Source: an uncultured Bacteroidales bacterium (lineage in GTDB: Bacteria; Bacteroidota; Bacteroidia; Bacteroidales; Bacteroidaceae). Taken from it: a stretch of 37,839 nt of DNA. This document shows positions 1,551 through 35,498 of this stretch, in pieces (position 1 is the first letter of the stretch; every line of letters begins with the position of its first letter). The stretch lies in the NCBI GenBank assembly GCA_902776455.1, contig CACYQI010000021.1, forward strand, positions 1 through 37,839. The letters run 5' to 3'. The translations under genes were made by a program, and so were the position numbers. Below the pieces are notes generated by a model. The model ran no database searches, was not told the DNA's origin, and worked only from the letters and a program-made list of their open reading frames with translations.

Positions 1551-4500
1551 CTAAGGCTTGACGATTTTCTTGCCTTGCTGTATGTAGATTCCGCGACGGT
1601 CGGTGTTGCTGACGCGCTGGCCGGAGAGGGTGAAGATAAGGTCGTTAGAGTCCTTAAGGTCCTTAGAGTCGTTAAGGTCTTCAAGGCCTGTGGGGTCATC
1701 GCCTTTGAGGTAGCCGAAGACGGCAAACTCGTAGATGCGGGTGGTGTATTCGGTCTGTTCGCCTTGCACCATCTGCAAGCGGACGCGGGTCGTGGTGACG
1801 GGATGCGAGAGGGTGCGAACCACCTTGTTCATCTGGTTTTCCTCCACGATGTCGGCATCGACCCACGTCCCATCTTCTGCCTGATATTGCAGCTTGAAGG
1901 ACCTGGGCACATAGCCGCCGCTCTCGCGAGCTGCTCCGAGCATCATCCAGCCTTCGACGATGGCGGTGTCCTTCAGCACGTATTGCAGCCAGGGAGTCTC
2001 ACTCTGAGAGCTTCCGACGCACCATTTGGTCGTGGGGTCCAGGTCGTTGGCAAAGCGAGGAGCCTCGTTGTTGTTGATGTAATGAGAAGCCGTGACGCTC
2101 TTTGGCACGAGACGGCCGTCCATTGACCACTGAGTGTTGACCATTGAGCTTTCTATCTCGGTGGTGAGCGGCGTGAAGGGCACGATGTCGTCGCAATGAT
2201 TGGGGGCGATTGTGGCAGCAAAGAGGAAGGTTTTGAAGTCGGAGGCTTTGACGGTGACTTCGCTGATGCCCTCGGGCAGCTCTACAGCATATTTGTATAT
2301 ATAAAGCATCTGCATGGCCTGATTGCTCTTGTCGGACACTCTGTGGGCATGAGAAGAGGCAAAGACGATGTTCTCCTTGCGGTAGTTCTCGGTGAGCGTG
2401 GTGCAGGAAGGCGGCTCTGCGGCACGACCGGAGAAGTAGGGAACATTGAGCACCGTCTCCTCGTCGCCTGCCGTCACCGTCACCTTTGCCCCTGCCTCTG
2501 TGGGACTGGCAAGGAGTAGATAAAGCTTGTACTTTCTCTTGCTCAGCCATGAAGGGAGGGAGATGGTTTGAGGTGAATTAAGGCGAAGCACGTTCTTATC
2601 TCCGTCGGTTCGCGGCCCCATCACGAAGTCCATGTTGTCGCAGAGGAGCGTGTCGGGAATGAGTTCGGCAGGATAGGCGTATGTGTAGGTGCTGGCAGCA
2701 TTGCCGCGCGAACTGTCGTAGCTCATCAGGTCGATGTTGTAGGGAAGCTCAAGCGGGTAACCGGGATGGTCGATTTCGTCTTCTCCTCCATAGTGGAGAA
2801 TACCCATCATGGGAACGCGGATGGCAAAGGTCTTGGGCTGATAGCGCTTGATGTCGAATGAGAGTTGGCCATCGACTATCGTGCACTCGCCACCAGGAAT
2901 GTCCTCTTCGATGCCGTTCACCTCGCGGGCCGAACTGATTGGCAAGGGGAAGGAGAGGCGCACGTCCTGTTGGTCTTCGCCTGTCCATTCATAGACGCGG
3001 ACGATGAACTCGTTGGAGTCCTCGGCCTTCTTCAAGACCTTGATGGCTACCTTATTAGTGCTGAGCGAAACAAAGTCCACGCGGCGATCAAGGAAGAGGC
3101 GCGGATGCTTGGGTGAGACGAAGGCGATGAGCGGCTGATTGAACTCACCTGCCTGCATCTGAGTCAGCTCGCTCCAACCGCCTTCATGCGGCAGCAGGGC
3201 GTAAGAGAACTTGTTGGGGCCGAGGTCCATGTTGGCCTGATGGCTGTAGTTCTTGCAGGAAGGAGTGCGCAGCAGCGTGAGACGTAGCGAAGAGTCGGAG
3301 GGCTTGTCCCAACCGTACTTGCAGTCGGTGAGGATGGAGATGCCGAAGCGATTGGTGGAATTGCTTTGGTCGGCCCATTGGTTGGCACAGACTTCGTACT
3401 CGTCTGCCGTGCGGATGCCTCGCGAGATGGTGCCGAGGGAGATGTCGTAAGTGCTGTTGGCGTTGCGAAGCGTGGTGGGGAAGGGGAAGTTGACTTTCAG
3501 CATGCGCTCGGAGGTCTGCCAGTCCACTTCGTTGACACACTCTACGCGGTCGTTGACGGCATTCATGCGGATGTACTGCACGAAGGTGGAGCCTTCCTGC
3601 CGACGAGTGACCTTCAGCGACTTACGCAACGGGCCGTCCTCCACAAGCTCCATCTCGACGTTCTTCGAGACAAAGGAGGAGGGGGTGCGACAGACATCTG
3701 TGTAGCTGACTTCCCAAGCAGGCCAAGTGTCCTCGTGGTCGTAGATGAGCTGCTGCCTGATTGCGCTGCCGATGAGGGTGCGACTGTTCGCGAGGTCGTA
3801 GAGATTGCTGATGTCGCCGTTGCTGTTGATGCTGATGCGGTAGCGTCCGTTGGAAAACCTCCTGAGGTTGCTGCTGACTTCGGTGGAGAGGTCGGAGGTG
3901 AGGGTTGACTTCTCGCCTACCCTTGCATCATAGACGGCAAAGCCGAGCGAGGGAACGGTAGCGGCGAAGATGAAGTGGAGGCGGTGGGTAGCGACGTCGT
4001 AGCCAGTGACTTGGGAAAGAACTTCCTTGCCATCGGGGTCGAGAACCCGCACGAATTCCTGCCGACGCCCTGTATAGACGGAACCTTCGACGATGTCGAT
4101 ACGCTCGTGCGAAAGGGGATTATAGACCACGATGGGCGTGCCTTCCGTCTGAGTGTCCATCAGCTGAATGACAGCTCCGGCGCTTGTGGAGAGTTCCTGC
4201 GCGAAGGCTCGGTTGGCAAGGTAGTACTCGTTGTAGGAATAGTCGTTGGCCGAGAGGATGCTCGTGCCTGTGATGCCGTCGTGATGCTGCTGCCAGAGGG
4301 TACGAATCCAGGCATCTTGAAGTTGCTGCGACGGGTAGGAACGGACGCCTTGCCACATAGCGAGCGCAGAGGCCTTCTCGGCAGCATCGGCCAGCAGTTC
4401 GTTCTTGCGGTTCCAAAGCTTCAAGGCTCCCCAGCTAGTATAGGCTCCCACGCCATGGGTCCGCATGGGCAACTCGCTGTTCCACACCTGATATTGCCCC

Positions 4501-5485: not shown

Positions 5486-5496
5486 TCACTCCGATG

Positions 5497-5606
5497 CTCC
5501 GTGGAGTGTGGGCCGATTCTCCGTGGAGTGTGAGGCGATTCTCCGTGGAGTGTGAGACGATTCTCCGTGGAGTGTGAGGCGATTCTCCGTGGAGTGTGAA
5601 CCCGGA
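5497..5606. repeat. Tandem array, five copies of a 22-bp unit
   Basis: Units start at 5497, 5519, 5541, 5563 and 5585 (the last one diverging at its end). Each begins CTCCGTGGAGTGTG, which contains the near-palindrome CTCC-GT-GGAG, and ends CGATT. The array lies in the 226-bp gap between the 3' end of the gene at 5614-6432 and the start of the GH38 gene, so it is in the upstream region of GH38. Confidence 0.88.
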
Positions 5607-6484: not shown

Positions 6485-9400
6485 TCACTTGAGGACCTTA
6501 CGTCCATTCACGATATAGATGCCCTTCTGCACAGGCTTTGCGATGCGCTGGCCTGCGAGGTTGAAGGCAGGGAGGTTAAGGTCTTTAAGGGCTTTAGAGT
6601 CCTTAAGGTCATTAAGGGCCGTCGGGATGTTGTCGGCATCGAAGCCGCAAAGCTCGCGGTAGTCGCCACGGTCGTACTGCCACTGGAGGATGGGGTAGCC
6701 GTTGCCGGCCGTCGGGTTCTTGTACCACGGCGCACCCCATCCGGCTGCGATGTCGCAGAGGTCCAGATGGTTCAAGCCAACACCGGGAGCCTCCATATCG
6801 TTTACCAGCATGTCGGCAAAGGTATAGACATTGGTAAGGATGTCAAGGTCGGTCGTTGCGCCGAAAGGCAGAGCCGTACCCGTCGGCGTAGTGGTCGCCA
6901 CGCTGGGGTTCCATGCTATTACATTATTATATATGCTTCCCGGCGTCGTACTGTTTTGTTCTCCGGCCACAACGCCGCCAGCTACGGGCGAAGAGACAGG
7001 CGCTGCCGCGTAACAGTTCTCCATGGTCAGACTCGTACGGATGCGTCCTACGAGGCCGCCGCTGTAGTTGGCCGACGTGCCGTTGCCGGTAATGGCGGCT
7101 GCGCTGTAGCAGTTGCGGATGATGATGGGCGAATTGCCGAGCGTTCCGCCAATGGCTCCGACGTAGCCTTTGCTGGTGACGGAACCCGTCACGTAGCAGT
7201 TCTCGATGATGACAGGAAGGGCGTTGTCCTCCGCGTCCTTGAAGGTGCTGTGGCCCAGCGTGCCGCCTATGACAGCCGCACCGCTGGCGTTGCTCAGGCC
7301 TTCCACCTTTGCATCGACGAAGCCCGTGTTGCGTATCTCGCCGCACATCGTGCCGAAGAAGCTCGGATAGTACTTCGTGCCGACGGGCGTAAGATTGCGG
7401 ATGATGTGTCCCTGGCCGTCGAAGTTGATTCTGTAGCGGAAGCTGTTTGTGCTCGTATTGAGCTGTTCCCAGGCAATTCCCTCCATGTCAACGTCGGCGC
7501 CAAGCACGAAATAAATCATTGAGTCCTTGATGAGGACGTTGTGCATCTGGTCGAGTTGCTCGGGACGAAGTATGACGTAGGGGTTCTCCTTTGTGCCGTC
7601 GCCCTGCTGATAGGCGTACATCATGTCGTGGCCTGCTGCCTGCAAGCGGGCGATGAGCGTCTTCAGCTCCCTGTCCTTCAAGTTGCAGTCGGCCAGCACT
7701 TGCTGCCCTTCAGCCAAGGCATCCTTGGCCTCCTGCGTACTGAAGCCGCCGGCTTCGGCCGTAGCAAGCTTTTCCTGCAACGCTTCCACCTCGACGACGA
7801 GGCCGGCATAGGCATCGATGCTGGTCTGTATGCTGTCGATTGTCTTGTTGATTTTCAGCAGTTGGTTGTAGCGGGTCTGTGGGTCGTCGGTGGCTTCAGC
7901 CGTTTCCTTGTAGGAAGCCATCGTCCTGTTGAAGCCGTTGTAGTAGGGTTTGCCGCTTTGGGCGAAGTCGTCTGCCATCTGATAGTAGCTGGAGAGGACG
8001 GAGGCAAGGGCTGTCGGGTCGGCATTGGAAGCCTTGTCGCGATAGATGATGTTCACGTTGGCCACGTGGAACCTTTCTGTTTCGGAGAGCGGCTGCTTGG
8101 TGCGCATGCCGAAGGTCAGCTTGCCGCCGATGACGAGGCCATACACGCTTTGGCTGAACTTGCCGTTGAGGAAGTTGTTGGAAACCACGGCGTCGGAGCT
8201 GGGAGCCGTCGTGCCATCGTCGGCAGGACAGAGCACCGGAGTGGCCACCTTACCGACGTAATACTCCACGCTGTGTTCCGTGTCGAAGCCGTTCACCTTC
8301 ATTTCGTAGAGACCGTCCGAAATGCTTGTGCTGACAGTCTGCGAGATGTCGAACGTGCCGCCGTACTTGGCGTAGCCACACGGCATGAAGGCGGTGCCTT
8401 TGCCGCTCGCTATTTGGCAGTCTTCGCTGGCGATGACATTCCATCCTCGCCACTCGCTCTTCATCAAGTCGGCATTGACAACCTTGTAGGTCACGTTGGC
8501 TCCGTTGCCTGTATAGAAGACGGGAGCGTCCATCTCGTCGCTGCTGGGATGTCCGTCGCCTATGGTGGGCCAGTCGTTTCTGTCCCATGTTATCTTGTCC
8601 AGAAGCATGAGGCGGCCGTTGAAGTTATTGTTCCTGTCGTAACTATGATAGAGGAGCCAGTCCTGTCCCTCGTCGTCTGTGATGATTTCGCTATTGTGGC
8701 CGGGGCCTTTCCAGCGGTCGTTGCCGGAGATGATGGTTGTGTAGTTGTCGCTTACCATCTGCCCACCTTGCTTGTTGGTGTACGGACCTGTGAGCTTTGT
8801 GGAACGTCCCACTACCGTCTTGTAGGTGCTGTTCTCGCCGTTGCAGCACGAGCCGACGCTGGCGAAAAGGTAGTAGTACTTTCCGCGCTTGTATATCATG
8901 GCGCCCTCGAAGGCACCGCCTGCCAGCTTCGTCACACCTGCATGGCGTTTCCACGAGCCGTTGGGCTGCGGGTTGTTGATGGGCGAGAAGTTCTTGATGG
9001 CAAGGGCGTCGTCGGTCAGCTCCGCGATGCAGATGTCGTTGAAGCTGCCCCAAACGATGTACTTCTTGTCGAACTCTTCGACGTAGCAGGGGTCGATGCT
9101 GTTCTTCACGCCTATCTCTGTGCTGCGGAAGAGCTTGCCCTTATCGGTGAACTTGGTCGGCGAGTCGCCCACAGCCACGCCGATACCGGTGCGCGAGCCG
9201 TTGCCCCAAAGGGCAGAAGCATAGTAGCAGACGTATTTTCCGTCCACGTAGTTGACGTCGGCTGCCCAAAGGCTGTAGTAGTCCGTCTTGCGCTTGCCGT
9301 CGTCGCCCACATAGGTTGAGTCGTTCCAAGTGGGTCGGCTGATGACGCCCGAGACGTCCGTCCAATGGACGAGGTCCGTGCTCTTCTTGCACTTACAGCC

Positions 9401-11471: not shown

Positions 11472-12812
11472 ATGAAGAAACTCATCCTGTCCCTGCTGCT
11501 GTCCTGCTTCGCTACTGCGGGCATGAGTCAGGACTCCTTGACGTATGCCATTATAAAGCAGGCACTTCTGGAGGACAGTCTTGCTCGGGAAGAGATGCGC
11601 TTCAACCGCGACGGCATCTTTATGCCCCTGCGCGGAATCATCCAAACCTTTACCCATCGCAGCTTCAACCGGCTGCCCGGTCCCTTCGTCAACAAGGAAA
11701 AGCACCCCGAAGACTGGGGGGTGGCTCTCTCGCCGCTGGCCGCAACGTGGGTGATGAAAGCCTTTGGCGTGAAGTCGCGCAGCACGACGCGACGCATGCT
11801 TACTGCCAACGGACTTGCCCTCGGCTTGACCGTCGGCCTGTCGCAAACGCTCAGATGGAGCGTGACGGAGGAACGTCCGGACCATTCCGACTCCCACGGT
11901 CTCCCCTCCATGCATGCATCGCTGGCCTTTATGGGTGCCACGGTGCTCAGTCGCGAGTACGGCCACATCAGCCATTGGATAACGATTGGCGGCTATGCTG
12001 CTGCCACCGGGACGCAGATGCTGCGCATCGGGCACAATCGCCACTGGATGAACGACATATTCCTCGGTGCCGGCATCGGCGTGGTCAGCACCCATCTCGC
12101 CTACTACCTCACCGATAAAATCCTCGGAAGGAAGGGCATAGCGACCCCCTCCAAACCTCCCCGAGGGGAGGCTTTCTGCTGCGAAAAAACTCTCCCCTTC
12201 GGGGGAGATGGAGAGGGGTCTGGCTCCGGCTTCCGATTGGTCTCAGGCACAGAGACAAACGGCCGAACACTTGACGTTGCCGACTTTGCCGAAACTGCAT
12301 CCGACTTCGACATGACCGACGTGAAACTTCGCAGCAGCGCATCCATCACTTCGGGCTTCGAGGCGGAATGGGCTGTCACGCCCAGCATCTCCCTCTCTGC
12401 CATTGGCCGCTACACCCTCTCTCAAGCGAAGCTGGAGATTCCCTCACCTTCCATAACGGCTTGGGGCGAACAGATTCACATCTACCACGGCAACGTGGCC
12501 TTGGGTTGGTTCCTGCCGCCTTTGGTGCAGAAGAAAGGAGGCAGCATGCGATTCGGCACGCGGACGCTTTGGGGGGTGCGCTACAACGAAGGCGTCATGT
12601 TCCGCCGCGTAGCACAAGGGATGCAGATGGGCGAGAACTTGCTCTACATCAAGCCGCAACTGCGCGCCGAAGGCGGAGCGGGCATCGTCATCGACATGCA
12701 GCAAAGCCACAACCAGACCGTAGGCTTCTCGTTTGACTACCTCCACACTTTCGGCACGCACTTCCTGGCCAACCGATGGGTAATAGCTTCCACTTGGAAA
12801 GCCTTGTTCTGA
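11472..12812 (+). CDS. PAP2-family membrane-associated phosphatase with C-terminal beta-rich domain and in-frame palindromic insert
   Basis: The product has 446 residues. A signal peptide (1-19, ending AGMS) is followed by a PAP2 acid phosphatase core: ERP (134-136), LPSMHAS (144-150, in place of PSGH) and RIGHNRHWMNDIFLG (185-199), which give the conserved Arg, His, Arg-His and Asp of the family. These enzymes dephosphorylate lipid phosphates or undecaprenyl pyrophosphate. Residues 224-250 (ATPSKPPRGEAFCCEKTLPF...) are the translation of a repeat element (12142-12221) that also occurs in the GH51 gene, placed between the PAP2 core and the C-terminal part. Residues 260-446 look like outer-membrane beta-strand sequence ending in ALF. 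ATG 11472 gives a clear signal peptide. It could act in lipid A or bactoprenol metabolism; the polysaccharide genes downstream make bactoprenol plausible. Confidence 0.85.
   Translation: MKKLILSLLLSCFATAGMSQDSLTYAIIKQALLEDSLAREEMRFNRDGIFMPLRGIIQTFTHRSFNRLPGPFVNKEKHPEDWGVALSPLAATWVMKAFGVKSRSTTRRMLTANGLALGLTVGLSQTLRWSVTEERPDHSDSHGLPSMHASLAFMGATVLSREYGHISHWITIGGYAAATGTQMLRIGHNRHWMNDIFLGAGIGVVSTHLAYYLTDKILGRKGIATPSKPPRGEAFCCEKTLPFGGDGEGSGSGFRLVSGTETNGRTLDVADFAETASDFDMTDVKLRSSASITSGFEAEWAVTPSISLSAIGRYTLSQAKLEIPSPSITAWGEQIHIYHGNVALGWFLPPLVQKKGGSMRFGTRTLWGVRYNEGVMFRRVAQGMQMGENLLYIKPQLRAEGGAGIVIDMQQSHNQTVGFSFDYLHTFGTHFLANRWVIASTWKALF
12142..12221. repeat. Palindromic repeat module inside the PAP2 coding sequence
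   Basis: CGACCCCCTCCAAACC, CCCCGAGGGGAGGCTT, then CTCTCCCCTTCGGGGGAGAT form two consecutive hairpins. The same approximately 79-bp module, with a few substitutions, is at 31443-31521 inside the GH51 gene, where it is translated from the opposite DNA strand of the module. The frame stays open through it. Confidence 0.85.
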
Positions 12813-12915: not shown

Positions 12916-12947
12916 TTTGGTTGATTTTCAAATTATTCTTAACTTTG
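12916..12947 (+). promoter_or_regulatory. Promoter of the CapD-type gene
   Basis: TTTG at 12916-12919 and TAACTTTG at 12940-12947 are 20 bases apart, matching the Bacteroidetes TTTG-N19-TAnnTTTG form. Transcription would start near 12953, so ATG 12978 is preferred over the in-frame ATG at 12921, which lies inside the promoter. Confidence 0.7.
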
Positions 12948-12977
12948 CGCCTAATTATTATAGGACAAACTACACTT

Positions 12978-15017
12978 ATGAAATTCCTATCGAAAATCGT
13001 CAATTGGTACTTTAGCCGGAACGCGCTCCCCTATTGGTGCATCCTGCTCATCGACTATACCATCATCATTTTCAGCGGTTATCTCGCCTACTACCTCTTC
13101 AACGGAGGCGAACAAGTCACAAGACATTTCTGGCCCATCTTCCACGACCTCTGCATCCTGCTCATCCCCTATACAGTGGCCTTCCGCCTTTGCCACACCT
13201 ACAGCGGCATCTTCCGCTACAGCAGTTTCGTTGACCTTGCACGCATCTGCTTTGCCATGCTGCTTGGCTCCTTCTTCGCCTACATCGCCTACCTGCTGAT
13301 TCCCGCACACAACAATATCTTCCTCGAACACCATCCCCGCCTGATACTCCTGCTCATTTTTGCCACAACGCTCATGTGCGCCGTACGCATCACGGTCAAG
13401 TCCATCTACGACCTCTACCGCTACAATGGCGCGGGCAAACGCATCTTCATCTTCGGCACACAGCACGGCGGCATCAGCCTCGCCAAGAGCATACGCAACG
13501 AAGCTTCCAAGAGATACACCATCAAAGGCTTCGTCAGCCACGATGCCGACATGAAGGGAAAGTGGCTGATGGGCGTTCCCGTTTGGGGCGAGGACGAAGA
13601 CATCGTGGAAATCATGAAGAAGTCGCACGTCTCTACCCTCATGGTCAGCCCCGTGCAGACGGCTCACTTCCGCGAGCAGGAGGCACTCGTCAACGCCCTC
13701 ATAGCCGCTGGCATCAAAATCATGATGATGCCCAACACGGAGGAGGAATGGGACGGAAAGAGCGAGTTGCGCTCCAGCCTGCTGCATGAGGTCGATATCG
13801 AAGACTTGCTGCCACGGCAGAAGATAGAAGTCGATATGCAAGCCATCGGCCGTCAGCTGAATGCCAACCGCGTCCTCATCACCGGAGCCGCTGGCAGCAT
13901 CGGCAGCGAAATGGTGTACCAGGTGGCACGCTTCGAGCCGAAGGAAATGATTCTCATCGACCAAGCCGAGACACCCATGCACGACGTGCGCCGCGTCATG
14001 GCAAGCAAATACCCCAGCATCCCCTGTCAGACCATCGTGGCAAGCATCACCAACCAGACGTTCATGGAGGACATCTTCCGCCGCTACCGACCCGAATACG
14101 TCTTCCATGCCGCGGCCTACAAGCATGTGCCCATGATGGAGGACAATCCCGCCATGGCCGTGCAGAACAACATCAACGGCACGCGCATCATCGCCGACCT
14201 TGCCGTCAAGTACGGAACAAAGAAGTTCGTGATGATTTCCACCGACAAGGCCGTCAACCCCACCAACGTGATGGGATGCTCGAAGCGCATCTGCGAGATA
14301 TACTGCCAGTCGCTCAACAGAGCCATCGAGAAGGTCAGGGAGCAAGGGGCAAGGAGCAAGGAGCAAGGAGCAGGGGGCAAGGGCTGGGAGAATACCAACA
14401 GCCAGAGCAATCCTCCTGCCCCTTGCTCCTTGCCCCTTGCCCCTTGTTGCCCCCTGCAGGCCAACGGTGAACTGCCATGCACGCAATTCGTCACCACCCG
14501 CTTCGGCAACGTGCTGGGCAGCAACGGCAGCGTGATTCCCATCTTCAAAGACCAGATAGCCAAAGGCGGCCCCGTGACGGTTACGCATCCCGACATCATC
14601 CGATACTTCATGCTCATCCCCGAAGCCTGCAAACTTGTGCTCGAAGCAGGCACGATGGGCAAGGGTGGAGAAATCTTTGTCTTCGACATGGGCAAACCCG
14701 TCCGCATCGCCGACTTGGCAAAACGCATGATAACGCTGAGCGGCGCACAGGACGTGAAGGTGGAGTTCACCGGCTTGCGCGACGGCGAGAAGCTCTACGA
14801 AGAGGTGCTCAACGATGCCGAACACACCCTGCCTACCGTCCATCCCAAAATCATGGTCGCCAAGGTGCGCGAGTACGACTACGAACAGGCTTGTCAGAAC
14901 GAAGAACGGCTGCTGCAGGCAAGCTACACGTACGACGATATGGCAATCGTGAAAATCATGAAGGAAATCGTGCCAGAGTTCAAGAGCCGCCAGTCGAAGT
15001 ACGAAGCTTTGGATTGA
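12978..15017 (+). CDS. CapD/PglF-type nucleotide-sugar 4,6-dehydratase (membrane form) with an in-frame repeat insert
   Basis: The product has 679 residues. About four membrane segments (roughly 18-42, 56-72, 88-110, 120-140) are followed by a first Rossmann-like domain (RIFIFGTQHGGISLAKSI, 155-172). The extended SDR catalytic domain comes next: GAAGSIGSE (303-311), YVFHAAAYKHVPMMEDNP, STDKAVNPTNVMGCSKR (Met in place of the usual SDR Tyr, typical of this family), TRFGNVLGSNGSVIPIF, GLRDGEKLYEE. The family oxidises and dehydrates UDP-HexNAc at C4/C6 for capsule or glycan synthesis. About 40 residues (453-493, VREQGARSKEQG...PLAPCCPLQ) are extra compared with the usual short loop before TQFVTTRFGN; they are encoded by a palindromic repeat (14336-14457). 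WecA, Wzi and glycosyltransferase genes are nearby. Confidence 0.9.
   Translation: MKFLSKIVNWYFSRNALPYWCILLIDYTIIIFSGYLAYYLFNGGEQVTRHFWPIFHDLCILLIPYTVAFRLCHTYSGIFRYSSFVDLARICFAMLLGSFFAYIAYLLIPAHNNIFLEHHPRLILLLIFATTLMCAVRITVKSIYDLYRYNGAGKRIFIFGTQHGGISLAKSIRNEASKRYTIKGFVSHDADMKGKWLMGVPVWGEDEDIVEIMKKSHVSTLMVSPVQTAHFREQEALVNALIAAGIKIMMMPNTEEEWDGKSELRSSLLHEVDIEDLLPRQKIEVDMQAIGRQLNANRVLITGAAGSIGSEMVYQVARFEPKEMILIDQAETPMHDVRRVMASKYPSIPCQTIVASITNQTFMEDIFRRYRPEYVFHAAAYKHVPMMEDNPAMAVQNNINGTRIIADLAVKYGTKKFVMISTDKAVNPTNVMGCSKRICEIYCQSLNRAIEKVREQGARSKEQGAGGKGWENTNSQSNPPAPCSLPLAPCCPLQANGELPCTQFVTTRFGNVLGSNGSVIPIFKDQIAKGGPVTVTHPDIIRYFMLIPEACKLVLEAGTMGKGGEIFVFDMGKPVRIADLAKRMITLSGAQDVKVEFTGLRDGEKLYEEVLNDAEHTLPTVHPKIMVAKVREYDYEQACQNEERLLQASYTYDDMAIVKIMKEIVPEFKSRQSKYEALD
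14336..14457. repeat. About 120-bp palindromic repeat inserted in frame in the CapD-type gene
   Basis: The outer arms are (G)GGCAAGGAGCAAGG-type on the left and CCTTGCTCCTTGCCCCTTGC-type on the right. The centre, GAATACCAACAGCCAGAGCA followed by ATCCTCCTGC (14390-14419), is present in reverse orientation between genes at 20257-20286 with about 26 of 30 bases identical. This shows that a dispersed element, not ordinary coding sequence, makes up this part of the gene. Confidence 0.85.
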
Positions 15018-16925: not shown

Positions 16926-17000
16926 GAGGCCTCTCCTAAATCCTCCCCTAAAGGGAAGGACTTCTCCCTCTCCTTTAGGAGAGGGTCGGGGAGAGGCTGC
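16926..17000. repeat. Intergenic palindromic module (CCTAAAGGGA type)
   Basis: CCTCTCCTAAATCCTCCCCT, then AAAGGGAAGGACTTCTCC and CTCCTTTAGGAGAGGGTCGG can fold into nested hairpins. Nearly the same sequence is inside the coding region of the neighbouring lipoprotein gene (17440-17545). It fills most of the gap between the lipoprotein and WecA genes. Confidence 0.8.
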
Positions 17001-17013
17001 GGGTCTTCAATTT

Positions 17014-17574
17014 TCAATATTTTCTGAACGTCAGTATGTCTTCGTTGTTTGCGCGGAGCACGAGTTTGCTGCCTGTGAGGGTCTGCAGCCGCATGATGCC
17101 GTCTTCCGGTACGCCGACCGCGGAGAGTATCGACATGGGCTGAATCTCGTCGTGCCTGTTTCCTTTGTATATGATGGGGTCGTAGATGCGAATCAGTTCT
17201 GTCTCCATCTTCATGGAAGTGCGGATGAAGAAGATTGGTTCGCTCTGTTTGCGGAAACTGGCCATCTGTAGCTGAAAGCTGTAGAAGATCATGTCCTCTT
17301 TGGTTGCTTTCACTTTGCCGTCTTTGTCCTTCCACTCCACCAGCTGCCACATGCCATCGAGGTCGCCGTTCTGGTCCCACTTCTTTTCGCAACCCGTGAA
17401 GGCTATCAGCAGGAAAAGGAGCAAAAGGAAGCCTCTACAGCCTCTCCCCGCAGCCTCTCCTAAATCCTCCCCTAAAGGGGAGGACTTCCCCCTCTCCTTT
17501 AGGAGAGGCTTGGGGAGAGGCTGGAGAGGGGTCTGGAGAGTCCTGCTGTATGCTGTGTTAAGGAAAGGCTTCAT
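17014..17574 (-). CDS. Putative lipoprotein (lipocalin-like domain) with a repeat insert before the signal-peptide core
   Basis: From ATG 17574 the product has 186 residues. The hydrophobic core RGFLLLLFLLIAFTGCEKKW ends in a lipobox (FTG-Cys) at about residue 55, followed by DGMWQLVEW and a beta-rich body (MRLQTLTGSKLVLRANNED). This resembles small Bacteroidetes lipocalin-like lipoproteins. The oddity is the start: about 40 residues (TPLQPLPKPLLKERGKSS, PLGEDLGEA) come from a palindromic module, so the n-region is far longer than normal. An upstream ATG at 17607 would extend it further. The gene could still be exported if translation starts as shown, or may be impaired. It lies between wecA-like and wzi-like genes on the same strand. 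Confidence 0.72.
   Translation of the reverse strand: MKPFLNTAYSRTLQTPLQPLPKPLLKERGKSSPLGEDLGEAAGRGCRGFLLLLFLLIAFTGCEKKWDQNGDLDGMWQLVEWKDKDGKVKATKEDMIFYSFQLQMASFRKQSEPIFFIRTSMKMETELIRIYDPIIYKGNRHDEIQPMSILSAVGVPEDGIMRLQTLTGSKLVLRANNEDILTFRKY
17440..17545. repeat. Palindromic module inside the 5' end of the lipoprotein gene
   Basis: CCTCTCCTAAATCCTCCCCT, then AAAGGGGAGGAC and CCTCTCCTTTAGGAGAGGCT give adjacent hairpins. This is the same family as 16926-17000. Translated on the minus strand it gives the Pro/Lys/Glu-rich segment before the hydrophobic signal core. Confidence 0.85.
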
Positions 17575-17669
17575 TCTTCTTTCAAATTTCGGGTGATCAA
17601 TGGTCAATGAAATAAATGGTAAATGGTAAATGGTAAATGAGAGATTTTTCCATTTTCAACTTTCAATTT

Positions 17670-26919: not shown

Positions 26920-27345
26920 TGTTTTATCAATCTGATAGGCAAAACGTCATTCCGCTTGCATTATGTCATTTCACAAAGTGGCGAAAAAGCGGGCAAAACA
27001 CGTCGAATTTGACGGCGAAGCATGGGGTATCGGCCAACACTCCATGCAGTATCGGCCTACACTCCACGGAGTATTTCCCTTTTCGGCACGTTGTGTTTGG
27101 TGATTTTTCAGCCGAAAATGTGCCGAAAAACGCTAAAAATCGCTTGTTTTTGTAAGGTGCAGGTGACATTTCTTCATTCTTATTTCTTAATTCTTAATCA
27201 TAACATATTGTATTTCAGCGTACATTCGATTTAAGCGCATTTCTTTGAAAAAACGACCAAAACCATGCCCGAGGCCGTTTGAAGCGGTTTTTGGAGGCTC
27301 CCATAAAGTCAAAAAGAAAGCAAATGAGGCAATTTCATAGCAAAG
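26920..27345. repeat. About 430-bp non-genic direct repeat, copy A
   Basis: The sequence from TCAATCTGATAGG through AAAAGCGGGCAAAACACGTC, two 22-bp units (27027-27070), GTGATTTTTCAGCCGAAAAT, TTCAGCGTACATTCGATTTA and AAAAAACGACCAAAACCATG to the CAAAAAGAAAGC region is repeated at about 32508-32945 in the same orientation with few differences. Short open frames exist on both strands in both copies (67 codons on minus), but conservation appears to cover the whole DNA and no ribosome-binding or promoter evidence favours a gene. Confidence 0.85.
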
Positions 27346-29405: not shown

Positions 29406-32009
29406 CTATTTCAGCTTTGTGGTGATGATGTTGATGCTGAAGGGTGCGACGTGGAAGGTGAGGCGGCGGCCTTCGTCCAAGGTCGTGACTTTGGCGGGGC
29501 GCGGCACGATGTTGTTGGGGTACTGCATGGTGTTCTCGTCGTCACCTGTCATGCCCGCCAGCCTTACCATCTCTGCTTCTGCTGCCGTGCCGCCCGAGAG
29601 TTCGATGCTGCCCGATGTGCCTGTGTCGCAAAGGTTCACTATCTTGGTGTAGAGCGTGCCGGTCTTCTCGTCGAGGGTCGAGTTGGCATAGACGCCATAA
29701 AGCTGCGAGGGCTTCTTCTTTCCTTTATACACTTGTTTCCCATCGACATAAGCCGCGATGTCCTCGCCATCCACTTCGAGCCGGATGTCGTACCAGCGGC
29801 CAGTCTCGTAGTGGTCGTCATGGGTGCCTTCGAGGGTAGCTCGACTGCCATTCGAGGTGGTCTCGACGCTCGTCCTTGTGTTGCCCCAGCCGCCGAGGTT
29901 GAGCCAATCGAAGTTCTTCTCATCGACGTAGTTGAAGACTATCATAAAGCCTTCCGCGCCGCTGTCCTTCCTTGCCTGCACCTTATAGGTATAGCGTTTG
30001 GCTGTGGTCGTACCGGGACAGATGCGCATCGACTCTTCGGCATTGGACGTTTGGCACAGCTCGTCGTCCTCCGTCACCCAGTTGCCTTGATACTCAGGCT
30101 TGGAGTTGCCCGACGTCCAGTCCTTCATGTCGGAAAGGGCAACGTCTCGTGGTCCTCCGCCATCGAGGAAGCCTTTGGGAGCAGGGGGAAGATAGATGAT
30201 GAGTTCGGGATTGCGATACGTTGCTTGCGTCTTCCATGTTGCCACGCCGATGCTGAAGGGCGTCACCGTCTCCTCTTCCTTCCGAGGGATGCTCCACTTC
30301 AACTCGCTCTCCACGAGCCTGTTTCCGATGTGGTTCGGGAAGAGCTGCTGCACCCAGTAGCTCGGTGTGCCGAAGGACTGGCTGCTGTTGAACCTAATCA
30401 TGTCGGGACGCCACTGGATGCGGTTCTCGTTGACGAAGATGGGTGCGTAGCTGCTCATGCGGACGATGTCGGCATTGTTCTCCATGCCGAGCATGAAGAC
30501 GGCTTCGCCCATAGCAGCGTTCATGTTGCCCGTAGTGCCGTAGCCATCCGTCACAGCATACTCGCCGGGATAGATGATGGGGCCGCGACGGTCGTAGTTG
30601 TCGAAGCGATGGTACTGGCTGACGAACCAGGCGGGATTGCGATAGTAGTGTTCATCGACGATATCGACGGGATGCTCGTTGCGCCAGCGGGGATGGTCCG
30701 TGCCCCACGACTCGACGTTACCGATGCATTGCACCTCCGGGAAGCGGGCCTTGATGGCATCGTAGAACATGCGGTAGCGTTCGGGGTAGTGGTCGCTCTG
30801 GTCGGAGTTGTCGTCCATGTGCCAGTTGTAGTTCTCGTTACCTATTTCTATATAGGCGATGTTGAAGGGTTCGGGATGTCCGTTCTCGGCTCTCATCTTG
30901 CCGTAGTGGCTCGTGACAGGGCCGTTGGCGTACTCCAGGGCACCGAGGCACTCGTCTATCCACGGCTGAAGCTCGTTCAAGGGGGTACAGCCGCCGTGCC
31001 AAATGCCGATGTTGACCACATAGAGGGGCTTGGCTCCGAGGTCTTCGCAGAGCTGCAGGAACTCGTGGAAGCCGAGGCCGTCGGTAGTGGGATAGCCCCA
31101 GTTGGCGTTCATGTGGCCTGGCCTGCGCTCTATCGGGCCGACGGTTCGTTCCCAATGGTAGGCGTTCTCCGGTTTGATGTTGCCCTCCACGTAGCAGCCA
31201 CCGGGGAAGCGCATGAAGGCTGGATGCAGGGCCTGAAGCTTCTCGGCCAAGTCGATGCGGCAACCGTTCTCGCGGCCCTTGAAGGTTGGCGGGAAGAGGC
31301 TCACCACGTCGAGGAGCACCGAGCAGGGGTTCTCAAACTCCAAGTGGAAGACGGCTTGCGGGTCGCTCTCTGTGGCAACGATGTTGGCTTCCACTTTCTG
31401 CCAAAAAGACCCCCCTCCATCTCCCCCGAGGGGGAGAGAGCTCGACCCCTTCCAAACCTCCCCGAGGGGAGGCTTCCTGCCGCGAAAACTCTCCCCCTCG
31501 GGGGAGATGGAGGGGGGTCTCTTGGAGGAGGGTCTTGTCTCGCCCAGCACCTTGCCGTCCCTGCTTCGAAGAGAGGCCTTAAAGCCTCCCCTCGGGGAGG
31601 TTTGGTGGGGGCCTATCCAGAACGACAGCCTGTACTGCGTCCCTGCCACTACGTTGATGCCCCAATAGCCTTCGTTGCTGATGCCGCCACCGGGTTCCGT
31701 GACTTCTACCTTCAAGGCGTGGCCTTGCTTCTCGTTGAGCAGGCCTTCGGTTACGAGGCTGATGTTGGCTCCCTCTGCCTTCCAATGGGCAGGCTTCTCG
31801 GCGTCGAACTCAAACGAGCGGTTCCTTATCAGCTCGGCATAGAGGCCGCCATCGCTGGCGAAGTTGATGTCCTCGTAGAAGATGCCGTAGAGCGTCGGAC
31901 TGATTTCGATGCCCTTTTGCGCCACATTGACTTTGATGTTGACCTCTGCCTGCAGGCTTGTGAAAGCAAGAGCAAGCAGAAGAAGCAGACTTATTCTTTC
32001 CTTTTTCAT
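29406..32009 (-). CDS. Secreted GH51-type alpha-L-arabinofuranosidase with palindromic inserts in its N-terminal module
   Basis: The product has 867 residues and a signal peptide (1-21, ending SLQA). A short strand ISPTLYGIFYEDINFASDGG opens the GH51 fold. A CBM4/9-like module follows at about 60-240 (SFEFDAEKPAHW, GYWGINVVAGTQYRLSFWIG). Two segments in this module (about 134-148 and 158-202) are repeat-encoded. The catalytic barrel holds FMRFPGGCYVEG, EIGNEN with acid/base Glu392, and YPGEYAV with nucleophile Glu483. Residues about 640-800 form a LamG/DUF1080-like beta-sandwich insert (GFMIVFNYVDEKNFDWLNLG, YDIRLEVDGEDIAAYVDGKQ) before the GH51 C-terminal strands. It should release arabinofuranose from arabinan or arabinoxylan, complementing the GH43 enzyme. 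Whether the inserts disturb folding is unknown. Confidence 0.9.
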   Translation of the reverse strand: MKKERISLLLLLALAFTSLQAEVNIKVNVAQKGIEISPTLYGIFYEDINFASDGGLYAELIRNRSFEFDAEKPAHWKAEGANISLVTEGLLNEKQGHALKVEVTEPGGGISNEGYWGINVVAGTQYRLSFWIGPHQTSPRGGFKASLRSRDGKVLGETRPSSKRPPSISPEGESFRGRKPPLGEVWKGSSSLPLGGDGGGSFWQKVEANIVATESDPQAVFHLEFENPCSVLLDVVSLFPPTFKGRENGCRIDLAEKLQALHPAFMRFPGGCYVEGNIKPENAYHWERTVGPIERRPGHMNANWGYPTTDGLGFHEFLQLCEDLGAKPLYVVNIGIWHGGCTPLNELQPWIDECLGALEYANGPVTSHYGKMRAENGHPEPFNIAYIEIGNENYNWHMDDNSDQSDHYPERYRMFYDAIKARFPEVQCIGNVESWGTDHPRWRNEHPVDIVDEHYYRNPAWFVSQYHRFDNYDRRGPIIYPGEYAVTDGYGTTGNMNAAMGEAVFMLGMENNADIVRMSSYAPIFVNENRIQWRPDMIRFNSSQSFGTPSYWVQQLFPNHIGNRLVESELKWSIPRKEEETVTPFSIGVATWKTQATYRNPELIIYLPPAPKGFLDGGGPRDVALSDMKDWTSGNSKPEYQGNWVTEDDELCQTSNAEESMRICPGTTTAKRYTYKVQARKDSGAEGFMIVFNYVDEKNFDWLNLGGWGNTRTSVETTSNGSRATLEGTHDDHYETGRWYDIRLEVDGEDIAAYVDGKQVYKGKKKPSQLYGVYANSTLDEKTGTLYTKIVNLCDTGTSGSIELSGGTAAEAEMVRLAGMTGDDENTMQYPNNIVPRPAKVTTLDEGRRLTFHVAPFSINIITTKLK
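31408..31519. repeat. Palindromic element with 31-bp perfect arms inside the GH51 coding sequence
   Basis: 31408-31438 is the exact reverse complement of 31489-31519. A smaller hairpin (CCTCCCCGAGGGGAGG, about 31457-31472) is in the middle. 31443-31521 matches the module in the PAP2 gene (12142-12221). A second small palindromic stretch (GCCTCCCCTCGGGGAGG) lies near 31583, also coding. Confidence 0.92.
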
Positions 32010-32507: not shown

Positions 32508-32945
32508 GATGCTTTGTCAATCTGATAGGTAATAGTGCAATTTCGCTTACAATATGTCATTGCTCAAAATAGAGAAAAAGCGGGCAAAACACGTCGAATT
32601 TGGCATCGTGGCATGGGACGTCGGCCGATGCTCCGTGGAGTATTGGCCTACACTCCACGGAGTATCTCCCTTTTCTGCACGTTGTGTTTGGTGATTTTCC
32701 AGCCGAAAATGTGCCGAAAAACGCTAAAAATCGCCCGATTTTGTAAGGTACAGGTGACAATTCTTAATTCTTATTTCTTAATTCTTAATTATAACATATT
32801 GTGTTTCAGCGTACATTCGATTTAAGCGCATTTCTTTGAAAAAACGACCAAAACCATGCCCGAAGCCGTTTGAAGCGGTTTTTAGCGGCCTTCACAATGT
32901 CAAAAAGAAAGCGAACCAGCCAATTCGGCAGCAAAATGTCAAGTG
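32508..32945. repeat. About 430-bp non-genic direct repeat, copy B
   Basis: Same orientation and content as 26920-27345, with 22-bp units at 32618-32639 and 32640-32661. The stretch 32270-32507 before it has no recognisable feature. Like copy A it is followed by a long hairpin element. Confidence 0.85.
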
Positions 32946-33599: not shown

Positions 33600-35498
33600 T
33601 CAGCGCAGACGGAACATGACTGGCAGGTTGAAGATACTGCGAACGGGATTGCCGTCCTCGTCCTTTCCTGGCTCCCATTTCGGCATCAGCTCCATCACGC
33701 GCTTGGCTTCTTCGAATAGCAGGTCGCCAAGGTCCTGCCCCGGCTCAAGCTTTTCCTGGCTGTCGGGATGCTCCTTCTTGTAAGTCTGAATTTCCACTTC
33801 CGTAAGCGCTTGGCTCGGAGCACGAGTCTTTTCTATGTGGCTGATGCTGCCGTCCTTCTCAATAACGAACCTTACGATAACACGTCCTTGCACGCCGAAC
33901 TCATGGCAAAGCTTGGGATAACGGATGTTCTCGGACATGAACTTGAAGCACTCCTCATCGCCGCCGGGGAACTTTGCTCTCTCCTTCACCACATTATAGA
34001 TGGTGTCGTTATTGTTTAAGACTTCCTTATCATTGAGCATTATCTTGGCGACGCTCTTGCCATTGACTGTAATATTGCCGTCGCCATCCATCTCTGCTCC
34101 GGGCAGCTTCTTGACGAGTTCCTTGACATCATCTTTGCTCTTGGTATTAATTACGATGGCACCATTGGCACCCTTGTCGCCCCACTTGGCGATGGCAGCA
34201 TCTTTCTGAAGCACGGTAATGCTCTCAACATCCTCAGGGTCGATATTAAGCAGTTTAGTTAACTGTTCCTCGGAGTTGATGTCCTTCGCAGCATCCTTAG
34301 GGCTTTCGTAGATTTTGCCGTTGAGGACAATCAGTGCATCCTTAGTCCCTCTCGTCTTTATCGAAAGTGCTTCCGTGCCATCAGGCTGGGTGATAAGACT
34401 GTTTTGAATCTCTTTGCCTTTCACAGCCTCCATAGCCTCTTGAGGCGTCATCTCTTTGCCATCGACAAGAACTTTTGAAACATTCTTTAATTCCACAACC
34501 TTTCTTTTTTCCTCTGAAGTTTGCAGGTTTGCGGAATTCTCCGTACCTTTGCCCTCGAGTTTGGATACTGTCTCCTCAATCGGAGCAACGAACTTAGGCG
34601 TAGCGAAGGCCGAAAGTGCCAACGCAGCCACCGGGATGACGTAGAGCGCCTTGCTCTTCATCCACGGATTTGACTTGATTTTCTTCATCATAGTGATACG
34701 TTTTTTAGTTAAACTATGGTTAAAGCTGTTGGCGAAAGGGTACCCACCGGAGCCAACGGCTTTTCTTATGAGCAACAACTGATAGCCTTGTGCCGAGACG
34801 CCCTGCTCGAGGACGAAGTTGTCGGCCTCGTATTCGTGAACATCACGCAGGCTGATGCCCAGCACGTAACAGAGCGGATTCCACCACTGAAGCATCTGTA
34901 CGAGGGTGAGCAGCACGACGTCCCACGAGTGGCGGCCCTGTATGTGTCCCATCTCGTGCAGTATAATCTCGCGGCCTGCCTCGTCGTAGTCCTTCTCCCC
35001 TATCACGATGTTCCGCATCCAGCTGAATGGCGCCACGTTATCCGAATGGCAGTAGATGCGGACGCCCTGCTCGTCGCTATGCCAAAGCACGCCCTTTCTC
35101 ATACCGAACTGCAGGCGGGCAATCTGCCAAAGACGTGCCGCGAGAAGCGCCACCATACCTATTATATATATAAAGGTGAAAAGGTGAAAAAGGGAAAAGG
35201 ACCCCTCCCTACCTCCCCTTAAAGGGGAGGCGATGACCTGCACCTCGGGCAAGACATGGACGGGAATGCCCAGCTCAAGCATCTGCAACTGAGCCGCTTG
35301 CACTACGGGCTGGTGGTCGAGCGACATCCAAGGAATGTTGCAGAGCGGCAGGACGAGCGACAGCAACAGGATGCTCAAGAGCACCATGCGATTGAAGCGG
35401 AAGAAACTCTCGCGCCTCAGCATCAGTATGTACGGCAAGTAGAGCATCGTCAGCACGATAGCGGACTTGATGGAATATAAAAGGACAGCGGACATCAT
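33600..35498 (-). CDS. BlaR1-like M56 metallopeptidase fused to TonB plug-like and TonB C-terminal domains
   Basis: The product has 632 residues. Membrane segments lie at about 5-25, 37-55 and 103-122. The M56 zinc motif HEMGH (181-185) with EYEAD (222-226) is followed by a membrane segment (ALYVIPVAALALSAFATPKF, about 285-305). A periplasmic region contains VESITVLQKDAAIAKWGDKG, ANGAIVINTK, a TonB-dependent-receptor plug-like piece. A TonB C-terminal domain ends the protein (FPGGDEECFKFMSENIRYPK, VQGRVIVRFVIEKDGSI). With the BlaI gene upstream it should form a signal-sensing pair: on stimulus the protease activity leads to loss of the repressor. Residues 91-100 (SPLRGGREGS), between the first two segments and the third, come from a short palindromic repeat. 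Confidence 0.88.
   Translation of the reverse strand: MMSAVLLYSIKSAIVLTMLYLPYILMLRRESFFRFNRMVLLSILLLSLVLPLCNIPWMSLDHQPVVQAAQLQMLELGIPVHVLPEVQVIASPLRGGREGSFSLFHLFTFIYIIGMVALLAARLWQIARLQFGMRKGVLWHSDEQGVRIYCHSDNVAPFSWMRNIVIGEKDYDEAGREIILHEMGHIQGRHSWDVVLLTLVQMLQWWNPLCYVLGISLRDVHEYEADNFVLEQGVSAQGYQLLLIRKAVGSGGYPFANSFNHSLTKKRITMMKKIKSNPWMKSKALYVIPVAALALSAFATPKFVAPIEETVSKLEGKGTENSANLQTSEEKRKVVELKNVSKVLVDGKEMTPQEAMEAVKGKEIQNSLITQPDGTEALSIKTRGTKDALIVLNGKIYESPKDAAKDINSEEQLTKLLNIDPEDVESITVLQKDAAIAKWGDKGANGAIVINTKSKDDVKELVKKLPGAEMDGDGNITVNGKSVAKIMLNDKEVLNNNDTIYNVVKERAKFPGGDEECFKFMSENIRYPKLCHEFGVQGRVIVRFVIEKDGSISHIEKTRAPSQALTEVEIQTYKKEHPDSQEKLEPGQDLGDLLFEEAKRVMELMPKWEPGKDEDGNPVRSIFNLPVMFRLR
35196..35232. 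repeat. Short palindromic module in the M56/TonB coding sequence
   Basis: ACCCCTCCCTACCTCCCCTT with AAAGGGGAGGCGA contains the CCTCCCCTTTAAGGGGAGG-type palindrome found between genes elsewhere. It adds about ten residues without breaking the frame. Confidence 0.7.

Follow-up and report, generated by a model that had tools for sequence, protein, structure and literature searches.

A family of short palindromic repeats was found in frame in many unrelated proteins, core enzymes among them, in a Bacteroidales bacterium and its relatives. Each complete copy is a doublet of hairpin units. The segment is absent from nearly all orthologues of six host proteins, the loops that carry it are re-used across species, and none of the copies tested breaks the frame of its host. 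We concluded that the element is very probably a non-autonomous, REP-like mobile doublet, kept in genes where it adds an in-frame permissive surface loop.

Two copies of the element in the window

The window, that is the whole stretch of 37,839 nt that was analysed, contains two full palindromic doublets of the commoner subfamily A. The first (12142..12220, +; 99.9 bits with the covariance model) lies in sense orientation inside the gene of a 446-aa PAP2-superfamily protein (11472..12812, +; Pfam PF01569, 32.7 bits), where it corresponds to about aa 223-251 and is read as IATPSKPPRGEAFCCEKTLPFGGDGEGSG. The second (about 31443..31520, +; 98.5 bits) lies antisense inside the gene of an 867-aa GH51-type alpha-L-arabinofuranosidase (29406..32009, -; Pfam PF22848 and PF06964), which reads the opposite strand of the element as RPPSISPEGESFRGRKPPLGEVWKGS. 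BLAST on DNA fetched from the same genome aligned the two copies with 91% identity over 80 columns (E 5e-27). The initial annotation had proposed a nearly identical module of about 79 bp in both genes, translated from opposite strands with both host frames staying open, and the coordinates, the peptides, the near-identity, the use of both strands and the open frames were all confirmed. The element is palindromic, as had been claimed, in the form of a doublet of two inverted hairpin units and not of one single palindrome.

The GH51 gene additionally carries two half units in frame. An inverted right hairpin adjoins the doublet (31404..31438, -) and is read as SLPLGGDGGGS; an inverted left hairpin (31581..31611, -) is read as QTSPRGGF, and at its position the GH51 orthologues L108 and L109 have QLPRGGEI. 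A second, related doublet family (GCCTCTCC...GGAGAGGC) was detected at 17451..17522 (+) inside a 197-aa ORF (17014-17607, -), with a further copy at 16927-16998 just past this ORF (model R1, 32.2 and 26.4 bits, respectively). The ORF had no NCBIfam family at E<=1e-20 and therefore may not be a gene. A possible degenerate unit, read as ASPLRGGREGSF, is located at 35198..35268 in a 632-aa ORF (33600-35498, -); the match is weak (R1 15.8 bits, E 0.12; unit BLAST 80% over 30 nt).

Repeats of other kinds occur in the window as well. At 14323-14451, 7-nt repeats of the GGAGCAA type and an inverted copy lie in frame in a 698-aa PseB-related protein (12921-15017), where they are read as REQGARSKEQGAGGKG...APCSLPLAPCCPL. 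Repeats of 9 nt (1637-1683 and 6568-6623) are read as linkers similar to LKDSKDLKDSND close to the C-terminus of two proteins, and 22-nt tandem repeats, some of them mutually inverted, were seen at 1047-1172, 5492-5601, 27035-27078 and 32604-32669. A 300-nt direct repeat with 89% identity connects 26949-27248 and 32540-32839.

Architecture and predicted fold

The alignment of 41 copies from the same genome and its relatives gave an element of approx. 77 nt with the consensus CGACCCCCTCCAAACCTCCCCGAGGGGAGGCTT-spacer-CTCTCCCCCTCGGGGGAGATGGAGAGGGGTC, in which two inverted hairpin units flank a variable spacer. Each end is a unit of tail and hairpin, and the spacer differs between species. Half units were also found on their own by unit BLAST, and the genes of PyrG and of the RsmF-like protein show a succession of half unit, doublet and second half unit. 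Two inverted hairpin units, a variable spacer, solo units and a high copy number together represent the architecture of a REP doublet or REPIN. The ends of the element are imperfect inverted repeats (GACCCC/GGGGTC), and no target-site duplication was evident by eye at the copies inspected.

The covariance model was built on the same 41 copies, including those in the PAP2 and GH51 genes. In a three-way-junction structure 91.9% of the cells of the alignment were paired, and the covariation score of 0.116 was higher than in all 500 shuffles (0.092 +/- 0.006), although kinship among the copies inflates such scores. A compensatory switch from C-G to U-A was present in 12 of the 41 rows and divides the two subfamilies; pairs changed on both sides and further pair types did not exceed the shuffles in this analysis. 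The predicted three-way-junction fold is supported by these alignment data. As DNA, five strands folded with z-scores from -1.7 to -5.1.

Copies in the genome and their host genes

The whole genome (3.39 Mb in 94 contigs, 87% complete) gave 51 BLAST matches at E<=0.001 to an 87-nt query. Because of these matches, chance and G/C-richness, named in the initial annotation as a possible source of the similarity, can be excluded. For the copy analysis, 35 stretches around the matches were taken. They contain 36 distinct copies of at least 36 nt (37 rows, one of which is the half unit of a composite), with 18 in genes, 2 at gene ends and 16 intergenic, as called by a codon score trained on the window. 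Unit BLAST gave 28 matches outside full-length copies, 14 of them in genes; these were kept out of the count since some are partial copies already counted and some are weak (80-83%).

The 18 intragenic copies occupy 17 genes, and all six frames of the element are in use. The hosts are the PAP2 and GH51 proteins, PdxT, a CotH/lamin-tail protein, an AMP-binding plus acyltransferase protein, RibD, a DUF6057 protein, CTP synthase (PyrG), an RsmF-like methyltransferase, UvrA, a GT2 protein, an anaerobic sulfatase maturase, CysN, WbqC, an FHA protein, an unassigned 541-aa protein with two copies and one further protein. It is typical of protein-coding palindromic elements that one family of repeats occurs in frame in several genes unrelated to each other, and the several unrelated hosts anticipated in the initial annotation were thus found, with more in relatives. 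In an exploratory comparison with a single threshold, period-7 repeats stood beside 5 of 18 copies outside genes vs 13 of 280 random sites (Fisher p 0.002), and beside 0 of 18 copies in genes vs 23 of 1303 random sites.

Distribution in relatives

Within the genus, matches were detected by BLAST, half units included, in 74 of 139 genomes; in the family, model R1 matched 79 of 399 genomes from 10 of 30 genera. The family-wide search placed the element in a called gene in 11 of 17 loci, with L281 and L282 apparently being the same gene. Scanning for an exact 29-mer returned at least 115 stretches, of which 80 were analysed as loci. Among the matches listed, only Bacteroidota titles were seen: Prevotella, Prevotellaceae, Bacteroidaceae or Bacteroidales, many from the rumen or other ruminant gut, one Chitinophagaceae MAG, and one Prevotella sp. 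tc2-28 (L329), whose title lacks the word 'MAG' and which was taken as an isolate. As most named records with the element are from Prevotella or Prevotellaceae, the organism of the window is termed Prevotella-like here. Phage, plasmid and viral collections gave no match by exact 29-mer or BLAST. The 80 loci, again among the matches listed, have 84 exact sites, with 52 in called genes, 2 at edges and 30 outside, where genes make up 83% of the DNA.

NCBIfam named 17 of 18 host proteins of relatives, the remaining one (L273) being without a match at the limit used. These hosts are SufB (two), RF3, ValS, ClpB, RNase R, ArgC (two), SurE, PyrG, IleS (two), RibD, ArgB with the insert near the N-terminus, TsaE, QueG and PreA. 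Prevotella sp. tc2-28 has a solo unit in frame in a gene, in common with the MAG RUG14466; a search at E<=0.001, in which 150 of 396 candidates were scored, gave no full doublet in it. For doublets in genes the evidence therefore comes from the other genomes, MAGs included.

Comparison with orthologues

Orthologues of six hosts were compared at the site of the insert. The segment was absent from all nine GH51 rows covering the site (a tenth row, L102, begins after it), from all nine PAP2 orthologues, and from all 24 orthologues each of CysN and UvrA. For PyrG it was present in one of 28 readable rows, L135 from the close species G124, while a 29th row (L148) is masked at the site; for PdxT one of 14 orthologues had it, again in G124. 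Orthologues without exactly this segment, which the initial annotation had named as support, were thus observed for GH51, PdxT, UvrA and PyrG. In PAP2 and CysN the residues beside the insert changed as well, so that a simple single insertion does not describe these two cases. PAP2 is the weaker case for an insertion, since its site is a variable linker that is filled with other residues in the orthologues.

The PyrG insert in G124 differed from the one studied here by two silent changes (0 nonsynonymous and 2 synonymous differences) and an in-frame indel of 6 nt, and the shared PdxT insert had 3 nonsynonymous vs 1 synonymous difference. The insert of the L028 host was also present in L045 of genome G054. 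Silent differences in the PyrG insert amounted to 2 of 39.3 sites, compared to 27 of 69.7 in the 50 codons on each side. A pooled test for low silent divergence of the shared inserts (Fisher p 6e-8) was set aside, because the L329/L312 pair had been picked by an exact 29-mer and because, for PdxT and the L028 host, divergence is likewise lower in the codons next to the insert; only the PyrG signal stands.

Repeated use of the same loops

At the PyrG site the loops comprise 25-48 residues in 8 of the 27 other readable rows and 9-13 residues in the remaining 19, and several of the long loops stem from other repeats. The MAG RUG192 (L323) has a different copy of the element in this same loop. Insertion sites are likewise shared by SufB in two MAGs (L291 and L304), by ArgC in L350 and L271, and by IleS in L274 and L283, which belong to two different genera. 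The UvrA insert is positioned between the signature helix and the Walker B strand, beside residues from a 7-nt repeat. As UvrA in L221 has a similar 7-nt-repeat insert at the same place without the palindrome, the UvrA palindrome was probably added onto an older insert.

Some further features of these two proteins were recorded. The PyrG loop after IKRRM is short in L157, and its coding sequence, CTGGGGGAGGGGTCTTTTGAT, is similar to the element's right end; it may be the scar of a lost copy. PyrG of the genome studied here (L016, gene 1686-3512, -) has a second in-frame insert, RPTPFPSLYGGEKKALPLEGERGEGLL, at aa 505-531, probably from another repeat family. Similar inserts were seen in PyrG of L139 and L140, and L160 has yet another one near aa 455. 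UvrA (L021) contains a second insert of repeat-like residues, SGIKSEELRVKNKSNKSEGEGNSDSSLSTPHSPLKLE, at about aa 370-403.

AlphaFold predicted residues 130-180 of PyrG and 913-951 of UvrA as coil, with block-mean pLDDT values of 22-41. The models were based on shallow alignments (22 and 19 rows) and had mean pLDDT values of 65.5 and 66.9, and in both of them other stretches outside the inserts were also below 50. Such predictions are compatible with the inserts forming a disordered loop.

Reading frames

All six frames are open in the consensus of subfamily A, and three in that of subfamily B. Dinucleotide shuffles of the subfamily A consensus were open in all six frames in 33% of cases, mononucleotide shuffles in 3.4%. 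The initial annotation had noted that the used frames lack stops and had suggested that this might be selected or result from G/C richness. The frames used are indeed free of stops; selection for six open frames is not needed to explain it, given that a third of the dinucleotide shuffles are equally open. Composition accounts for most of the openness, because shuffles are often open and subfamily B has three open frames only. Copies of subfamily B also occur within genes, using stop-free frames.

The named loci of relatives gave 81 non-overlapping model matches of <=95 nt, with 50 in genes, 24 outside and 7 at edges. One antisense frame was used by 23 of the 50 intragenic copies, whereas 9.7 would be expected if open frames were used equally. 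We treated this skew as a lead only, because the named set contains near-duplicate genes. The 28 full-length copies of the genome studied here are divided into 14 in genes, 12 outside and 2 at edges, and no skew was visible among these 14. The length of the element modulo 3 showed no visible constraint in genes, and the flanking bases must therefore complete the frame.

Coding-like sequence on both sides and on one strand was found for 48 of 62 intragenic copies vs 0 of 38 others, after skipping 2 intragenic and 7 other copies near contig ends. No frame-breaking copy was detected among those tested. This result argues that out-of-frame insertions are lost, and it also speaks against removal or skipping of the segment.

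Search for a mobilising enzyme

Candidates for RAYT and other Y1 proteins were searched with PF01797 in the same genome and in the genus. One 179-aa protein of the genome (L131, 1438-1974, +) passed the RAYT model NF047646 with 95.6 bits (cut-off 80); the genome also has two longer, weaker relatives. The protein has the hallmarks NHLH and YIHQNP of subclass 2.6, which the consulted parts of the published classification describe for Bacteroidetes as 179 aa long with NH[LIV]H and YIH[QN]NP and as flanked by atypical secondary structures (PMC6006769). Upstream of its gene we observed an 18-nt inverted pair (1234-1251 and 1295-1312) and downstream 22-nt repeats (2226-2357) unlike the 22-nt repeats of the window. 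A 36-nt repeat with a spacing of 42 nt lies in frame inside a 448-aa RAYT-related protein (L132, 1656-1733).

The surroundings of the genome's three RAYT-like genes (8.3, 8.2 and 4.9 kb) contained no copy of the element. The weaker, RAYT-like PF01797 matches of the genus were examined together with these three genes, in total 20 stretches (143,070 bases), eight of them with a confirmed RAYT; a single weak match of 25.6 bits was obtained, in L409. Seven of the ten proteins of this set given to NCBIfam passed the RAYT cut-off, as did the L131 protein. Around 33 PF01797 loci, including the 30 best-scoring ones fetched from the genus, there was one strong match (L248) and one weak match (L257). 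Those 30 genus loci are largely of the IS200 type: seven of ten proteins examined, including those of L248 and L257, matched the IS200 model best. A RAYT-linked REP (REPtron) was consequently rejected, since the element does not flank RAYT genes in the stretches examined. This missing linkage also lowered our estimate for a Y1 HUH transposase or RAYT that acts on single-stranded hairpins and mobilises the element, which we now consider rather doubtful.

Proposed explanation and alternatives

According to the explanation that we prefer, two hairpin units of approx. 30 nt, inverted around a variable spacer, would be able to fold as single-stranded DNA. The doublet would have multiplied in Prevotella-like gut bacteria, its copies landing both in and between genes, and the intragenic survivors would be those that do not interrupt the frame and whose position is a permissive surface loop. 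Such a copy would be translated as a coil rich in Gly, Pro, Ser, Glu and Arg, whatever the strand and frame of the host, because stops are rare in a G/C-rich sequence that contains long runs of purines and pyrimidines. Mobility, mobilisation as a single strand and near-neutrality of the loop are what we infer from the observations taken together, and translation of the insert is presumed from the open frame.

Could the repeats instead be mRNA or DNA structures, such as terminators, mRNA stabilisers or recombination sites, with intragenic copies kept for that role? The stems covary, 16 of the 36 copies are intergenic, and the PyrG insert has fewer silent differences than its flanks. However, covariation can be mimicked by kinship and by the existence of two common subfamilies. 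The silent-site signal comes from one gene: for PdxT and the L028 host the neighbouring codons, too, have diverged less than the remainder, and identity was the basis for choosing the fourth pair in that comparison. We consider a structural role unlikely. That the inserted peptides are useful to the host, in regulation, localisation or interaction, and are kept for that reason appears improbable to us. Such modules are at odds with the unrelated peptides that result from six frames and 17 unrelated hosts within one genome, with the missing predicted structure of the two modelled inserts, with the absence of inserts from nearly all orthologues examined and with the 3 nonsynonymous vs 1 synonymous difference in the shared PdxT insert. 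Speaking for them are the persistence of inserts across two species in PyrG and PdxT, the presence of the L028-host insert in a second genome, the lack of nonsynonymous differences in PyrG, and the skewed frame use in relatives, which is not predicted by a purely neutral account.

Palindromic repeats are a known source of misassembly, and the genomes are mostly MAGs; repeats wrongly joined during short-read assembly or binning could have produced false chimeric genes. This is very improbable, as many host genes return to their frame beyond the insert, the inserts of PyrG and PdxT recur at identical codons and with few substitutions in a separate genome (G124), and Prevotella sp. tc2-28, taken as an isolate, shares its in-frame solo unit with a MAG. 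We give hardly any credence to the idea that the segment stays untranslated because it is spliced out of the RNA or because the ribosome bypasses it over the hairpin: skipped elements would need no frame, and yet coding-like flanks were confined to the intragenic copies, even though the hairpins are strong and hairpin-linked bypassing exists elsewhere. The REP-like mobile doublet that survives in permissive loops remains our preferred explanation.

An extension of this explanation is that the doublet was selected for readability in all frames and for giving a harmless coil, and so continues to supply conserved enzymes with new loops. Re-invasion across species, sometimes by different repeat families, would then affect the same sites, namely the PyrG loop that follows IKRRM, the UvrA loop that separates the signature helix from Walker B, and the loops of IleS, ArgC and SufB, and intragenic copies would be kept uniform at the DNA level by conversion or structure. 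We regard this as speculative and not likely.

The findings extend in-frame repeat-encoded insertions to Prevotella-like gut and rumen bacteria and to highly conserved hosts such as CTP synthase, UvrA, release factor 3 and two tRNA synthetases. Such insertion events appear to be frequent in this bacterial group. The re-use of loops provides a natural map of insertion tolerance in core enzymes, and the element offers a testable system for the question whether selfish DNA seeds new protein loops. For annotation the results are a warning that G/P/S-rich inserts in such proteins can be repeats and not domains.

Comparison with known systems

A small inverted-repeat element is reportedly present in a related bacterium, the MITE with minisatellite (BrickBuilt) of Porphyromonas gingivalis; it is likened to our element by description, both being small and built of inverted repeats. 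The Rickettsia palindromic elements (RPEs), as described in the parts of that literature used, are also palindromic repeats in frame in unrelated, apparently functional proteins. They are likewise compared by description; they come from another phylum, and the present element differs in consisting of two hairpin units, with half units also occurring alone. The analogy to RPEs drawn in the initial annotation was right in kind; equivalents are not confined to Rickettsia, as in-frame REP dimers, also in uvrA, are reported for several other bacteria in the portions consulted of a survey of REPs (PMC3733652). In its doublet of two inverted units, variable spacer and solo units the element resembles REPINs or BIMEs, as far as these are treated in the parts used of PMC6006769. 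The REPIN/RAYT system differs in that here no REPtron was found and the element does not flank the 179-aa RAYT gene.

The element is also similar to the GTAG/CGTC-tagged REPs, which, in the parts of the survey used, are small inverted hairpin units with dimers and clusters in frame in unrelated ORFs including uvrA. According to those parts, many ORFs contain single or dimeric REPs in frame, and DNA synthesis and repair are the functions of many such ORFs, with examples in uvrA of Opitutus terrae and Thioalkalivibrio and in uvrB of Rickettsia conorii (PMC3733652). Intragenic REP peptides comprise 20-30 aa and clusters 43-82 aa, two inserts in one gene occur, and it was proposed that the inserts may be neutral since they are located in linkers or loops (PMC3733652, same parts). 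The kind of element is therefore already known. The tagged REPs are from another phylum; Bacteroidetes are named there once, for CGTC repeats, none of them intragenic in the parts used (PMC3733652). The tag is absent from both strands of our consensus, and among 41 copies single ones have the tetranucleotides somewhere on a strand (GTAG in 2, GTGG in 8, CGTC in 7). In four copies (L020, L021, L043 and L050) CGTC stands in place of the consensus CATC at the right hairpin, and this may connect the element with the CGTC-tagged REPs (PMC3733652). The openly licensed literature searched gave no published case of coding palindromes in Bacteroidota. Different here are the phylum, the consensus without a GTAG/CGTC tag, the use of six frames, the hosts in translation and nucleotide synthesis, and the re-use of the same loops.
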